Below, one piece after another: positions 3,775-64,000 of a stretch of DNA of 64,000 bases; the stretch's first letter is position 1, and the number at the start of each line of letters is the position of its first letter. A program made the translations under genes and the position numbers. Source of the DNA: Sulfuricystis multivorans (GTDB lineage Bacteria; Pseudomonadota; Gammaproteobacteria; Burkholderiales; Rhodocyclaceae); the NCBI RefSeq assembly GCF_003966565.1, contig NZ_AP018718.1:248001-312000 (forward strand), in the 5' to 3' direction. The notes beneath the pieces are model-generated. The model worked only from the letters and a program-made list of their open reading frames with translations. It searched no databases and was not told the DNA's origin.

Positions 3775-6513
3775 TCAGAGCTGCGGTTTTTTCAGCAGAG
3801 CGACGAACTCTTCGGCCGGGAGCGGCTGGCTGTAGAGGAAGCCCTGGGCCAGTTCGCATTCGCGTTCCCGCAGCAGACTGGCCTGACCGAGCGCCTCGAC
3901 ACCTTCGGCGACCACCGACAGGCCGAGACTGTGCGCCATTGCCAGGATCGCCTCGACCAGCGCGCGCTGACCGGGATCGCTTTCCATGCCCTTGACGAAG
4001 CTCTTGTCGATCTTGACGTGGCGCACCGGGAAGCGTTTCAGATAAGCGAGCGAAGAATAGCCGGTGCCGAAGTCATCGATCGCCAGATGTAAGCCGACTT
4101 CGCCCGCCTCGGCGAACCATTGTTGGATCGCCGGCATGTCGGCGAGCAGCGTGCGTTCGGTGATTTCGAGGACGATCTGCTGCGGCGAGATGCCATATTT
4201 GGCGAGCGCGGCGAGGATGCGCTTGACCGAGAGCGCCTCGGGCAATTGGCGCAGCGAGACGTTGATCGCCAACATCAGGTGGTGGCCGGCGGCTTTCCAG
4301 GTGGAGAGTTGTTGGCAGGCTTCTTCGAATGCCCAGGCGCCGATCTCGCGGATCAAGCCGGTTTCCTCGGCCAGCGGCACGAATTTGGCTGGTTCGAGCA
4401 AACCGCGCTGCGGATGCTGCCAGCGCAGCAATGCCTCGGCGCCGACGATGTGGTTACTCGTCAGGTCGACGAGTGGCAAAAACTGGAGGCGTAGCTCCCG
4501 CCGCGAGAGCGCACCGCGTAGGTCGTTTTCGAGGCTGCGCCGGTCGATGGCCGCGGTGGTCAGTGCCGGTTCGAAGAATTGCGCGTTGTTGCGCCCCAGC
4601 GCCTTGGCGCGATACATCGCCAGGTCGGCATTGCGGAACAGGGCGTCGATGTCGCGCCCGTCGTCCGGGAACAGCGTGATGCCGATCGAGGCGCCGATGT
4701 GGATCTCGTTGCCCTCGATGTCGAACGGCTCGTTCATCTGCGCGATGATCTTTTCGGCGACGTTGCCGGCCGGCGCGGATTCCGAGATGTCGGTGAGCAC
4801 GACGACGAATTCGTCGCCGCCGAGACGGGAAATGGTGTCGGTTTCGCGCACGCACAGGCGCATCCGTTCTGCCACCAGCTGCAACAAGCGGTCGCCGATC
4901 GCATGGCCGAGCGTGTCATTGACCTGCTTGAAGAAATCGAGGTCGATGAACATCACCGCGACGCGCGAGCCTTCGCGGCGGGCCTGCTTCAGGGCCTGGC
5001 CGAGGCGTTCGGCGAGCAGGTTGCGATTCGGCAGGCCGGTGAGCGGGTCATAGTTGGCGCGGAAGGCGATCTCGTCTTCGTCGTGTTTTTTCTGCGTGAT
5101 GTCGATCGCCAGCGCGACGTAGCCGGCCGTGCCGCCTCCGGCGTCGGGCACCGCCGAGATGATCTGCCAGACCGGGAAGACCTCGCCGTTCTTGCGCCGG
5201 TTCCACACCTCGCCTTCCCAGCGCCCCTGGCCGCGCAGCCGTTCCCACATGGTGGCGAAGAACTGCTCGTCGTGGCGGTCGGACTTGATCAGGCGCGGGG
5301 TCTGGCCGATGGCCTCGGCGGCGCTGTAGCCGGTCATCCGGGTGAAGGCCTGATTGACGCGTCGGATCACGCCGTCGGCATCGGTGATCATGATCGCCTC
5401 GTTGGTGGCTTCGAATACCGCGGCCGCTTCGCGCAGGCGGCGTTCGGCTTCGACTCGTTCCGTGACATCGTGAATGATCGCGTAGATGAGCAGGCGATCG
5501 TCACGATGCATGGGGCTGGCAGAAACCTCGACGCTGCGCAGCGACCCATCTTTCAGCCGGTGGCGCTGGACCGTCTGTTCGTGTCCATTGGCCAGTGAGC
5601 GGGCCAGCTCGGTGGTGGTTTCTTCCAGTGTGCTCTGGTTGATGTCGCTGATCGCCAGGGTAATCAGTTCGTCATGGGGATAGCCGTAGAAGCTGCAAGC
5701 GGCAGGGTTGGCATCGACGATGCGGCCATCACGGGGATCGATCAACAGCATCGCCGCCAGGGCGCTCTGGAAGAACTGCTGGAAATGTGCTTCACCTTCC
5801 TTGGATGTCTGGATCAGCCGCGCGAGTCGCTGCTCCATTTGGCGCTGGGTCGTGATGTCGGCATTGATACCGATCATGCGTTGCGGCCGACCTTGGGCAT
5901 CGCGCATCAGATGCGCCACGGTATGCACCCAGCGATGTTCACCTGCTTTGGTGCGCAGGCGGTAATCGACCTGGAGGAAGTCGCCGCTTTTGCCGAGCAC
6001 GGTTTCGAAAGCCCGCCGCACCTGTGGCTGATCTTCCGGATGGATCAGCGCGCGCCAGCTGGCCAGGGTGGTCGGCAGCGCCTCGGCCCCATAGCCGAGA
6101 TTACGCCACCAGTCAGGTGAGAAGCGCACCTCGCCGCTGGCCGGATCCAGAGTCCATAGACCTTGGCCGGTGCCTTCGAGCAGGGTTTCCCAGCGCTCTG
6201 GGGCCTCGGCGACCGGGACGGGTGGCATCTGGGGTTCGACTGTACCCACTGCCCGAGAGATCTGCGGTGGGCGGAAGACGAGAAACGCCACGAGTCCGAC
6301 CACCACCAGCAGGACCAGCAGGGCGATCAAGGCGAGCGCCTGACTCCAGACGAGCTGCGCTTCGAGCACCGCTGCCAACCGTTCGAGCATCACGGTCGCG
6401 TTCGTTCCGGCCGCGCCGAGACTGGCAGCAGCCGGGCCCGTGCTGGCGAGTCCCAGTGACACGGTCAGCAGACCGAACAGGCAAGACAGGACGTAGCGGA
6501 TCAACGGGCGCAT
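3775..6513 (-). CDS. Membrane-anchored PAS-PAS-PAS-GGDEF-EAL signalling protein
   Basis: A 912-residue protein predicted to make and/or break c-di-GMP at the inner membrane. The N-terminus has a signal-like hydrophobic stretch and a second strong helix at about 55-80, so only a short periplasmic loop is exposed. Three PAS/PAC modules follow, at roughly 103-225, 240-350 and 357-475. The diguanylate cyclase motif is intact, RLGGDEF near residue 563. The phosphodiesterase signature is EALLRW near 691, with DDFGTG near 810. Both catalytic signatures are complete, so the protein could be bifunctional. An AT-rich promoter region lies upstream at 6570-6630. Confidence 0.93.
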   Translation of the reverse strand: MRPLIRYVLSCLFGLLTVSLGLASTGPAAASLGAAGTNATVMLERLAAVLEAQLVWSQALALIALLVLLVVVGLVAFLVFRPPQISRAVGTVEPQMPPVPVAEAPERWETLLEGTGQGLWTLDPASGEVRFSPDWWRNLGYGAEALPTTLASWRALIHPEDQPQVRRAFETVLGKSGDFLQVDYRLRTKAGEHRWVHTVAHLMRDAQGRPQRMIGINADITTQRQMEQRLARLIQTSKEGEAHFQQFFQSALAAMLLIDPRDGRIVDANPAACSFYGYPHDELITLAISDINQSTLEETTTELARSLANGHEQTVQRHRLKDGSLRSVEVSASPMHRDDRLLIYAIIHDVTERVEAERRLREAAAVFEATNEAIMITDADGVIRRVNQAFTRMTGYSAAEAIGQTPRLIKSDRHDEQFFATMWERLRGQGRWEGEVWNRRKNGEVFPVWQIISAVPDAGGGTAGYVALAIDITQKKHDEDEIAFRANYDPLTGLPNRNLLAERLGQALKQARREGSRVAVMFIDLDFFKQVNDTLGHAIGDRLLQLVAERMRLCVRETDTISRLGGDEFVVVLTDISESAPAGNVAEKIIAQMNEPFDIEGNEIHIGASIGITLFPDDGRDIDALFRNADLAMYRAKALGRNNAQFFEPALTTAAIDRRSLENDLRGALSRRELRLQFLPLVDLTSNHIVGAEALLRWQHPQRGLLEPAKFVPLAEETGLIREIGAWAFEEACQQLSTWKAAGHHLMLAINVSLRQLPEALSVKRILAALAKYGISPQQIVLEITERTLLADMPAIQQWFAEAGEVGLHLAIDDFGTGYSSLAYLKRFPVRHVKIDKSFVKGMESDPGQRALVEAILAMAHSLGLSVVAEGVEALGQASLLRERECELAQGFLYSQPLPAEEFVALLKKPQL

Positions 6514-6600
6514 TTGAATGCGGATGACTTGAAAGGCGTCTCAAACCCAAACTCCTAGCAGGATTCGGGCCTGATCTCCTAACTTATTACCAAAGTTCGA

Positions 6601-6629
6601 AATTTGCGGCTCTGAAAATTTTCCGTCAA
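6601..6629 (-). promoter_or_regulatory. Putative sigma70 promoter for GGDEF-EAL gene
   Basis: On the minus strand TTGACG (6629-6624) and CAAATT (6606-6601) are separated by 17 bp. They lie in the only AT-rich patch of the area, about 90 bp upstream of the GGDEF-EAL start. The -10 box is weak, so this is a candidate only. The spacer contains the self-complementary GAAAATTTTC. Confidence 0.35.
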
Positions 6630-6633
6630 CAGA

Positions 6634-6653
6634 CTGTAAGGAATTCCTTACAG
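6634..6653. promoter_or_regulatory. Perfect 20-bp palindrome (operator or terminator)
   Basis: CTGTAAGGAA is followed immediately by its exact reverse complement. The site overlaps the stop codon of the upstream kinase-fusion gene (TAA at 6648-6650) and sits just upstream of the putative promoter of the GGDEF-EAL gene. It could be a dimeric repressor site. It could also be the stem of a terminator for the kinase gene (8-bp stem, AATT loop), although no uninterrupted U-tract follows. Confidence 0.5.
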
Positions 6654-8030
6654 CCGTTCATCGTCACCAGGGGGCTCGAACCAACGCAGCTGCTGCTGCA
6701 TGACCTCGACGGTCGCCTCGGAGGCATCATTGCGGCGTGCGGCGATGCGCCGGGCGAGCTCGTCGGGGGAGGCTTGGGGCGCGATCAATTCGAATGGCAC
6801 CGCCAAGCGCTTGGCCAGGCTGCGAAAACGGTCGCGCTCGGCGCGGCGCAGGAAGGCGGCATCGACGATCACCGACCAACCGGCGGAAAGCAGTGATTCC
6901 GTAAGCTCGGCAAGCCGCGCATAGGTGCGCGCATTCGCTCGACGCGTGTAGATCGTGCCGCCGCTTGCCGCATCCGGCGCCAGACCAAACAGGCGCTTGC
7001 GCTCGACATCGGAACGGATACGCACCGTGGTGAGAAACTCGGCGCTGGCAAGACGGCACGATGTCAGATACGTCTTGCCGCAGCCCGACGGCCCGCAGGT
7101 GATCGAAAGCAAAGGTGCGAAAGGCGCGATGAGTCGCAAGGCGAGGGTCAGATAGCCGTCCGCCTCGGCCGGATCGCCTCGCAGCGCGGCCACCTTGGCG
7201 CGCACCATCGCCCGATAGACGAGGTAGAAGCGCAGCACCGCGAGCGCGTCGAAGTCGCCGCTCCAGACCAGCCATTCGTTGAGCAGCCAGGTGGCCAGCC
7301 CCGGCTGCTCGTGGTCGAGCAGGTCCAGCAGCGTGAAGGCGATCTCGCTGGCGACGTCGATCGCGCGAAGGGAAGTGCTGAATTCGATGCCGTCGAAGGC
7401 GACGATACGGCCGTCTACCAGCACCAGGTTGCCCAGATGAAGATCGCCGTGGCCTTCGCGGATGAAGCCCGACGCATGGCGACGGGTGAAATCGCCATGG
7501 CGACGCTGCCATTCCGCTTCGGTCCACTGGCGTAGCCGGGCCAGCGATGCCTCTTCGGCCGGCAGGAGGTGCTCCAGCTCATCGAAGTTTTCCAGTGCGT
7601 CACTGCGGATGCGTTCCGGCGTGCCGAACTCTGCTGCGGCCAATGCCGCGCCATTCTGGAAATCGGCCAGTTCGCGCGCGAAGCGCGAGAGGTGATCCTG
7701 GGTCAATCCACCGCGGCGGCAGACCTCGTCGAGTCGGAGCGTTTCATCGAATCGCCGCATCTTCACCGCCGGCTCGCCGGCGAGCTCGACGACATCCAGA
7801 TAAAGGCCGGGCGCGAAGCGCCGGTTCAAGCGCAGCTCCTCGTGGCAATAAAAGCGCCGTTTGTCGACCGTGCCGTAATCGAGGAAGGGCAGCGTCACCG
7901 GCTTCTTGACCTTGTAGGCGAACTCGCCGGCGAGCAGCACCCAGGAGATGTGCGTTTCCCTGATTTCGACCGAGGCGGAATCGGGCAGCGCCTGAAGGCA
8001 AGCGAGGGGCAGTTCCGGCATAATGTCCAT
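6648..8030 (-). CDS. Aminoglycoside-phosphotransferase-like / P-loop kinase fusion
   Basis: A 460-residue two-domain protein. Residues about 1-310 resemble aminoglycoside/choline-kinase-type phosphotransferases. They include the Brenner-type catalytic loop REGHGDLHLGNLV and the metal-binding segment IVAFDGIEF. Residues about 315-460 are a P-loop kinase with Walker A GPSGCGKT. Such fusions are widespread in proteobacteria, but the substrate is not established. The start (8030, or 8021 at a second Met) nearly abuts the divergent oxyR start, so each gene's control region lies inside the other. Just after Walker A the sequence CRLASAEFLTT is encoded by dispersed-repeat copy 7035-7058. Confidence 0.85.
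   Translation of the reverse strand: MDIMPELPLACLQALPDSASVEIRETHISWVLLAGEFAYKVKKPVTLPFLDYGTVDKRRFYCHEELRLNRRFAPGLYLDVVELAGEPAVKMRRFDETLRLDEVCRRGGLTQDHLSRFARELADFQNGAALAAAEFGTPERIRSDALENFDELEHLLPAEEASLARLRQWTEAEWQRRHGDFTRRHASGFIREGHGDLHLGNLVLVDGRIVAFDGIEFSTSLRAIDVASEIAFTLLDLLDHEQPGLATWLLNEWLVWSGDFDALAVLRFYLVYRAMVRAKVAALRGDPAEADGYLTLALRLIAPFAPLLSITCGPSGCGKTYLTSCRLASAEFLTTVRIRSDVERKRLFGLAPDAASGGTIYTRRANARTYARLAELTESLLSAGWSVIVDAAFLRRAERDRFRSLAKRLAVPFELIAPQASPDELARRIAARRNDASEATVEVMQQQLRWFEPPGDDERL
7035..7058 (+). repeat. 24-bp dispersed repeat, copy 2 (inside kinase fusion gene)
   Basis: Variable base 4 is C and the centre reads GCAA. It is antisense to the host gene, where it encodes part of CRLASAEF shortly after the Walker A motif. 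Confidence 0.85.
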
Positions 8031-8031
8031 T

Positions 8032-8940
8032 ATGACGTTAACCGAACTGCGTTACATCATCGCACTGGCGCGCGAAAAACACTTCGGCCGGGCGGCCGAG
8101 AAATGCTTCGTTTCCCAGCCGACGCTGTCGGTCGCCGTCAAGAAGCTCGAGGACGAGCTCGGCGTGATCCTCTTCGAACGCGGCCAGCACGAGATCAGCG
8201 TGACCCCGGCCGGTGAGCCGATCATTCGCCAGGCCGAAAAGGTGCTCGCGGAGGCCGCGCGCATCAAGGAGCTCGCCGCTACGGCGGGCGATCCGCTCAC
8301 GGGGCCCCTGCGCATCGGCGCGATCTACACGATCGGGCCCTATCTGCTGCCCCGGCTGGTGCCGTCGCTACGCAGCCGTGCGCCGCAGATGCCGCTGATC
8401 CTCCAGGAAAACTTCACCGCGCAGCTGATCGAGGCGCTGAAGAACAGCGAGCTCGACGTCGCGATCGTCGCGTTGCCGATCGAGGAGCCGGGGCTGGTGG
8501 CCCAGGCGGTATATGACGAAGTGTTTCGCGTGCTGGTGCCTGCCCAGCATCCGTGGGCCAAGGAAAAGGCGATCGCCCCGCGGCGCCTGCTCGACGAGCC
8601 CCTGTTGATGCTCGGGCGCGGCAACTGCTTCCGCGATCAGGTGCTCGATCTGTGTAGCCAGGCCGGCGCGGGCGGGCCGCAGGTGCTCGAAGGCTCTTCG
8701 CTGGAAACGATCCGGCTGATGGTCGCCTCGAACGTCGGCATCACCGTGATGCCGGCCTCGGCGGTCGATGAGCTGCCGAAAAACGATCCGCTGCTGCGCG
8801 TGCGCCCCTTCGTCGAACCCCAACCCTCAAGGCGCGTCGGCCTGATCTGGCGCGCCAGCTTCCCACGCCATCAGGCGATCGACATCCTGCGTGGCGCGCT
8901 GCTCGATCATCTGCCGCCCGGATGCACGCCGGCACCCTGA
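8032..8940 (+). CDS. oxyR: Hydrogen-peroxide-inducible genes activator OxyR
   Basis: A 302-residue LysR-type regulator that senses peroxide through a disulfide and activates antioxidant genes. The N-terminal helix-turn-helix reads HFGRAAEKCFVSQPTLS. The redox cysteines fall exactly at Cys199 and Cys208 (GNCFRDQVLDLC) when the ATG at 8032 is used, matching E. coli numbering. This supports 8032 over the in-frame ATG at 8023. dps, a classic OxyR target, lies 3 kb downstream. The esterase-like gene overlaps its 3' end by 19 bp, so they are probably co-transcribed. Confidence 0.95.
   Translation: MTLTELRYIIALAREKHFGRAAEKCFVSQPTLSVAVKKLEDELGVILFERGQHEISVTPAGEPIIRQAEKVLAEAARIKELAATAGDPLTGPLRIGAIYTIGPYLLPRLVPSLRSRAPQMPLILQENFTAQLIEALKNSELDVAIVALPIEEPGLVAQAVYDEVFRVLVPAQHPWAKEKAIAPRRLLDEPLLMLGRGNCFRDQVLDLCSQAGAGGPQVLEGSSLETIRLMVASNVGITVMPASAVDELPKNDPLLRVRPFVEPQPSRRVGLIWRASFPRHQAIDILRGALLDHLPPGCTPAP

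Positions 8941-60865: not shown

Positions 60866-64000
<3,135 letters not shown>

Follow-up and report, generated by a model that had tools for sequence, protein, structure and literature searches.

The locus

The window, i.e. the whole 64,000-nucleotide stretch of Sulfuricystis multivorans DNA that was analysed, contains two neighbouring minus-strand genes, encoding a kinase-like protein and a PAS-GGDEF-EAL protein, with the following features at and around their boundary.

6648-8030, minus strand: upstream kinase-like gene, 460 aa, with an AAA_33 domain at residues 309-454 and its stop codon in the palindrome
6634-6653, unstranded: perfect 20-bp palindrome CTGTAAGGAATTCCTTACAG, proposed enhancer (upstream activating sequence)
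6635-6652, inside the palindrome: conserved 18-bp core, TGTAAGG-N4-CCTTACA
6573-6634, minus strand: AT-rich spacer from the core to the promoter block, of near-constant length in five genomes
6612-6628, minus strand: possible weak second activator box TGACGGAAAATTTTCAG, suggestive only
6557-6572, minus strand: conserved sigma-54-like -24/-12 block AGGCCCGAATCCTGCT, with GG at 6570-6571 and GC at 6558-6559
3775-6513, minus strand: PAS-GGDEF-EAL protein gene, 912 aa, with intact GGDEF and EALLRW motifs, the proposed target

No Pfam family was found for the N-terminal part of the 460-aa kinase-like protein. A LysR-type gene, which we take to resemble OxyR, lies at 8023-8940.

The first-pass annotation had described a perfect 20-bp palindrome in an AT-rich island of GC-rich DNA, covering the TAA of the kinase-fusion gene, and all of this holds: CTGTAAGGAATTCCTTACAG is perfectly symmetric over 6634-6653, the GC content is 0.38-0.42 in 60-base windows over 6570-6659 compared with about 0.62-0.75 in the coding DNA on both sides, and the minus-strand TAA of the ORF at 6648-8030 occupies 6648-6650, inside the palindrome. 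It is the longest spacer-less palindrome in the window, and the 20-mer has a single copy in the 2.81-Mb genome, even when 3 mismatches are allowed. The accompanying claim that such symmetry is rarely accidental is weaker than stated, as about 0.13 palindromes of at least 20 bp are expected per 64 kb (mean of 60 second-order Markov sequences as long as the window), hence symmetry alone is modest evidence, although the chance of such a palindrome inside the 135-bp gap, obtained from base composition, is only about 1.3e-4. Concerning the putative -35 placed next to the palindrome, TTGACG is present at 6624-6629, but no sigma-70-type promoter reached the threshold in a scan of 6450-6750. Elsewhere in the window, at 63228-63253, there are two overlapping palindromes, GATCGGCACGGTGCCGATC (with a 1-base centre) and CGGTGCCGATCGGCACCG.

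Conservation across genomes

The 18-bp core was found in 5 of 19 genomes of the genus, and the same five were the only carriers among 395 sampled genomes of the family. They comprise the own genome (G000) as well as G017, G003, G013 and G018, and each holds the core once, at the 3' end of the kinase-like gene; the many copies in unrelated gaps that the first-pass annotation had named as contrary evidence are thus not seen. The core is identical in the five species save for a T/A change at the centre in one of them, and its surroundings diverge. The outermost C-G pair belongs to the own genome only, the other four carriers keeping just the inner 18 bp, and of 61 genomes one has the 20-base form. 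In four carriers (G000, G017, G013 and G018) the GGDEF-EAL gene directly follows the kinase-like gene and the core, while in G003 the contig ends within the start of that gene, the remainder being on another contig.

The carriers fall into two groups of the kinase tree (G000, G003 and G017; G013 and G018), both within an eight-species clade with support 0.97, whose other members G002, G004 and G012 (the latter 76% complete) lack the core. Between the two groups of species, whose kinase proteins show about 74% identity to the own one, the flanks of the core are scrambled. A scan of public genomes with TGTAAGGAATNCCTTACA returned 20 loci, three of which are the kinase/GGDEF-EAL locus and contain the two genes as well as the promoter block. 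No relative of the kinase gene is seen at the remaining 17, and none of these has a sigma-54-like block scoring at least 9 within 120 bp (three reach 8); one of them, L052, gives a weak GGDEF/EAL-type match (155 aa at 28%).

The GGDEF-EAL protein has relatives (E up to 1e-200) in 11 of the 19 genus genomes, i.e. the five carriers and six others. Upstream of the gene in these six non-carriers, neither a palindrome with arms of at least 7 nor TGTAAG/CTTACA was found in the 250 bp before the first possible start, where the true gene starts are uncertain and the N-terminal parts differ; one of them, G009, shows a sigma-54-like 9/12 match at -17. The element therefore goes with the carriers' version of the GGDEF-EAL gene.

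There is no family of similar sites in the carriers, since matches to the 14-base pattern of the core with up to 3 mismatches number 21, 14, 15, 15 and 6 in the five genomes (palindrome included), fewer in every case than for the reversed control (47, 43, 40, 29 and 35). One other 2-mismatch site, at C1:1569311 of the own genome with a counterpart in G017, lies at the start of a coding frame, presumably that of a thiol peroxidase, and one further 2-mismatch site lies at C1:25233. The relaxed pattern TGTAA-N8-TTACA with up to 1 mismatch likewise gave 5, 8 and 7 sites in three genomes compared with 15, 11 and 9 for the control. Six of the loci other than the palindrome were read: at L226 a sigma-54-like match of 9/12 lies at a distance of 21 bases, within an open frame of 777 aa, and the others have no such match scoring at least 9 within 200 bases. 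Around position 1501 of L225 and L227 (G000:C1:1729200 and G017:C1:1720802) an AT-rich island at a gene boundary, near-identical in the two species, contains TGTAATCCAGAAATTACA between TTGAACCT...AGGTTCAA, with no sigma-54-like site within 200 bases. The palindrome sequence was not found in the literature searched, in any spelling tried.

A sigma-54-like block at near-constant distance

Alignment of the five gaps reveals only one other strongly conserved block, which reads GGCCCGAATCCTGCT in four genomes and GGTCCGATTCCTGCT in G003. Its GG-N10-GC is invariant in all five carriers, as in a sigma-54 promoter, for which we used the consensus TGGCACG-N4-TTGCW. Over the 12 informative positions the block scores 9 in G000, 10 in G017, 8 in G003, 9 in G013 and 9 in G018; scores of at least 9 with both GG and GC are expected 0.05 times per 134 window positions, and of at least 8, 0.2 times. 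The block differs from the consensus at two of its well-kept positions (C instead of A and C instead of T), and even the letters of its internal spacer are conserved, which goes beyond the needs of sigma-54 alone. When up to 2 mismatches are allowed, the promoter 15-mer has 10, 11, 13, 15 and 13 matches in G000, G017, G003, G013 and G018, respectively, compared with 0, 0, 4, 3 and 6 for the reversed control, and the string evidently occurs without function as well, because both matches with 1 mismatch in the own genome fall within long open frames.

In the same genome order, the centre of the core lies 72, 73, 75, 72 and 73 bp before the GG, and the promoter block 45, 45, 45, 35 and 46 from the start codon. 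The spacer between core and GG measures 63-66 bp in the five genomes and is AT-rich throughout (GC 0.32-0.45), while its sequence is scrambled between the two carrier groups. From the position of the block, transcription is predicted to start near 6546, which would centre the palindrome at about -98. Enhancer dyads usually lie about 80-150 bp upstream of the transcription start, a range that includes this predicted position. A search for an IHF site in the spacer with the IHF consensus gave at best 6-7 of 9 positions, which is not convincing.

Sigma-54 machinery and candidate activators

All five carriers encode the sigma-54 factor (PF04552; rpoN in the own genome) together with strong PF00158 activators. 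The own genome has nine full-length activators of this type and one split match, all with a receiver domain except L125, which has a PAS domain instead; five weaker PF00158 matches were taken as other AAA proteins. Among these activators are PrsR (TIGR02915, 755.7 bits, cut-off 502.6) and NtrC (TIGR01818, 705.3, cut-off 558.6). Close relatives of NtrC and of the L121 and L122 activators occur in all five carriers (that of L122 cut at a contig end in G003), and PrsR and the L128 activator in four, neither being found in G013, which is 94% complete. As relatives of several activators are thus present in four or five of the carriers, presence singles none out. A TyrR-type activator was not found, NF008085 staying below its cut-off in all eight activators scanned (six of them own) by an NCBIfam search that covered the activators other than L124, L127, L128 and L129, and HTH_50 was below its cut-off in the two of ten own activators where it was listed. 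A second weak match to the sigma-54 DNA-binding domain (37-39 bits), in a 405-aa frame, was observed in two of the five genomes, at G000:C3:97034-97486 and G018:C262:9114-9566.

Comparison with known activator sites

No known activator matches the palindrome site, and three systems come close in different respects. According to PMC4374768 and PMC4894688, the TyrR box is TGTAAA-N6-TTTACA, and the GcsR site is the 18-bp TGTAACG-N4-CGTTCCG, whose activity depends on RpoN. The palindrome core is likewise an 18-bp dyad, sharing 10 of the 12 letters of the TyrR box, and like the GcsR site it consists of two 7-bp arms around N4. It differs from both in that letters 6-7 of its arm are GG, and not A or CG as in the sequences given there; moreover it is a single site, whereas three are described for the GcsR promoter, and no TyrR-type activator was found in the own genome.

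The third system is that of the PEP-CTERM promoters. As described by Haft et al. 2006 (PMC1569441), proteobacterial PEP-CTERM genes are preceded by a 17-nt motif 1 ending in TTTACA and then by a sigma-54 motif 2, with a spacer averaging 62.8 nt (SD 10.6), and PMC9850573 reports the mapping of such a promoter. The architecture proposed here, with an activator box, a spacer and a -24/-12 block, and the right half (C)TTACA, are like those described there (PMC1569441). In contrast, the left half of the palindrome is TGTAAG and not TGTCG, its length is 18 and not 17 bp, and what it is proposed to control is a c-di-GMP enzyme instead of a PEP-CTERM protein.

PEP-CTERM proteins gave 40 matches in the five carriers, 34 of them over the cut-off, with a model that also matches in 7 of 14 control genomes (in 2 of them over the cut-off). 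For 30 of the 40 matches a locus was available and scanned. A sigma-54-like site was seen at 21 of these 30 PEP-CTERM loci, and upstream of it TGTCG-N7-TTACA is exact in 18 of the 21 regions, has 1 mismatch in two more and is absent in one; since the sites were picked by eye and nine loci (L198, L204, L212, L216, L218, L220, L221, L223 and L224) were left out for want of a good site or of upstream sequence, 18/21 is no rate for all PEP-CTERM loci. Ten of the 18 exact boxes lie 62-65 bp from position -26, the remainder at 40, 52, 52, 74, 74, 86, 95 and 119 bp. Across these 21 regions (L195-L222, in G000, G003, G013, G017 and G018) the box positions differ by roughly a helical turn (11.2 bp), as would suit an activator that has to bind from one face of the DNA; the phasing has R 0.89 at 11.2 bp, which none of 2000 flat controls attained (0.003 when only distinct values are used, 0.0085 when each cluster counts once), in a post hoc test that takes a flat spread over 35-125 bp as its null and in which orthologous promoters are not independent.

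These boxes make PrsR the leading candidate for the activator by distance and half-site. The proposal, which we hold tentatively and consider on the doubtful side, is that a symmetric PrsR-box variant makes the c-di-GMP gene a member of the PEP-CTERM/exopolysaccharide regulon, the variant having two TGTAAR halves around N6 instead of TGTCGR-N5-YTTACA, one Fis-type activator taking both spacings (N5 and N6). In its favour, PrsR is encoded in the own genome and in four of the five carriers overall, the palindrome stands at the modal distance of the PrsR boxes (62, 63, 65, 62 and 63 bp to position -26) and in the same helical phase, its right half CTTACA recurs in 3 of the 18 boxes, and the possible weak second box that follows the palindrome (TGACGGAAAATTTTCAG in the own genome) has 2 mismatches to the PrsR-type box in G017 and G003 and more in the other three carriers. 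On the other hand, the palindrome lacks the TGTCG left half, which all 18 exact boxes have by design of the search and which is also seen in one of the two boxes with 1 mismatch, and its own left half TGTAAG is seen in none of the 18. The palindrome has 4 mismatches in 10 positions to the 17-bp box and is one base longer, so by the definition used here it does not qualify as a PrsR box, although it may serve the same protein. PrsR was also not found in G013, where all four regions examined nevertheless carry PrsR-type boxes.

Weighing the explanations

We regard as probable that the palindrome is an upstream activating sequence, or enhancer, for a sigma-54 promoter of the PAS-GGDEF-EAL gene. 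The PrsR proposal is a narrower form of this explanation, its likelihood lying within that of the enhancer and not adding to it. The first-pass annotation had suggested that the site, which precedes the GGDEF-EAL gene, suits a dimeric regulator, and the comparison, with the same core in five species at the distance of an enhancer from a conserved sigma-54-like promoter, supports this. Some points speak against the enhancer. Activators of this kind often use several sites, and here there is no second strong site, nor did the core search in the five genomes yield a regulon. The G003 promoter block scores only 8/12, a level expected 0.2 times per gap, and the outer arms in G013 and G018 pair by changed letters, as those of a hairpin would.

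This last observation leads to an action in RNA, by which a stop-codon hairpin would end, protect or process the transcript of the kinase gene, or block read-through into the GGDEF-EAL gene. The element sits at a gene end, the strand of the own genome folds to -19.2 kcal/mol (z -3.0, with 1 of 200 shuffles as good), different letters extend the arms by 3 more pairs in G013 and 7 in G018, and G000 and G017 show G-U pairs; the folds in G013 and G018 reach -16.5 and -22.2 kcal/mol, but those in G017 and G003 only -10.3 and -9.7 kcal/mol. The first-pass annotation had considered a terminator stem equally suitable. Like an intrinsic terminator, the palindrome has a stem and a loop of 4 nt where a gene ends, but no U-tract follows it in any of the five genomes, which makes a classical terminator unlikely, and no terminator was detected in a scan of 6450-6750; a search of 6300-6900 against Rfam, with E values up to 5 allowed, gave no match. 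Further, the letters of the core do not drift, which pairing alone would not demand, a ribosome terminating at the stop codon within the stem would cover it, and a hairpin leaves the constant distance to the promoter block unexplained. On balance, we consider a role in RNA unlikely as the main explanation, while a double use as DNA enhancer and RNA stem is possible. The longer arms in G013 and G018 suggest selection on pairing or on a longer dyad. At the stop of the kinase gene in G018 (L019/L073) the arms measure 14 bp, seven pairs beyond the conserved arm, and the 3' arm outside the gene mirrors the last codons, which may point to selection on pairing or to template-switch repair.

Many families of regulators are compatible with a perfect conserved dyad close to a promoter, and the palindrome might therefore be the operator of another dimeric regulator, not of the enhancer-binding type, that controls the GGDEF-EAL gene or a promoter in the gap. 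One site per genome would fit such a local regulator. The scan for sigma-70-type promoters yielded none nearby, however, the LysR-type gene at 8023-8940 is no particular fit as the regulator, and the dyad stands 63-66 bp upstream of the sigma-54-like block, the usual place of an enhancer, all of which makes this reading rather improbable. A chance palindrome without function is disfavoured and would be very surprising: the expectation of about 0.13 per 64 kb leaves some room for it, but not the value of about 1.3e-4 in the gap or the retention of the core across two species groups whose flanks are scrambled and whose kinases share about 74% identity with the own one.

Proposed mechanism and implications

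In the enhancer model, which we infer from sequence comparison, a dimeric NtrC-family enhancer-binding protein would bind TGTAAGG-N4-CCTTACA, centred about 98 bp before the transcription start. The bound activator would loop over the AT-rich spacer, and its ATP hydrolysis would open the sigma-54 RNA polymerase waiting at the -24/-12 block at 6557-6572, such that the PAS-GGDEF-EAL gene would be made only once that activator is switched on. Both the use of the block by sigma-54 and the occupation of the palindrome by such a protein are putative, and the identity of the latter is a matter of candidates, with PrsR in front.

A palindrome that is only mildly improbable by itself thus becomes convincing through its conservation and spacing. 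The analysis provides a concrete, testable promoter, with an activator site, a spacer and a -24/-12 block, for the GGDEF-EAL enzyme of a genus of the Rhodocyclaceae type that has received little study, and it possibly ties c-di-GMP turnover to the PEP-CTERM/exopolysaccharide programme.
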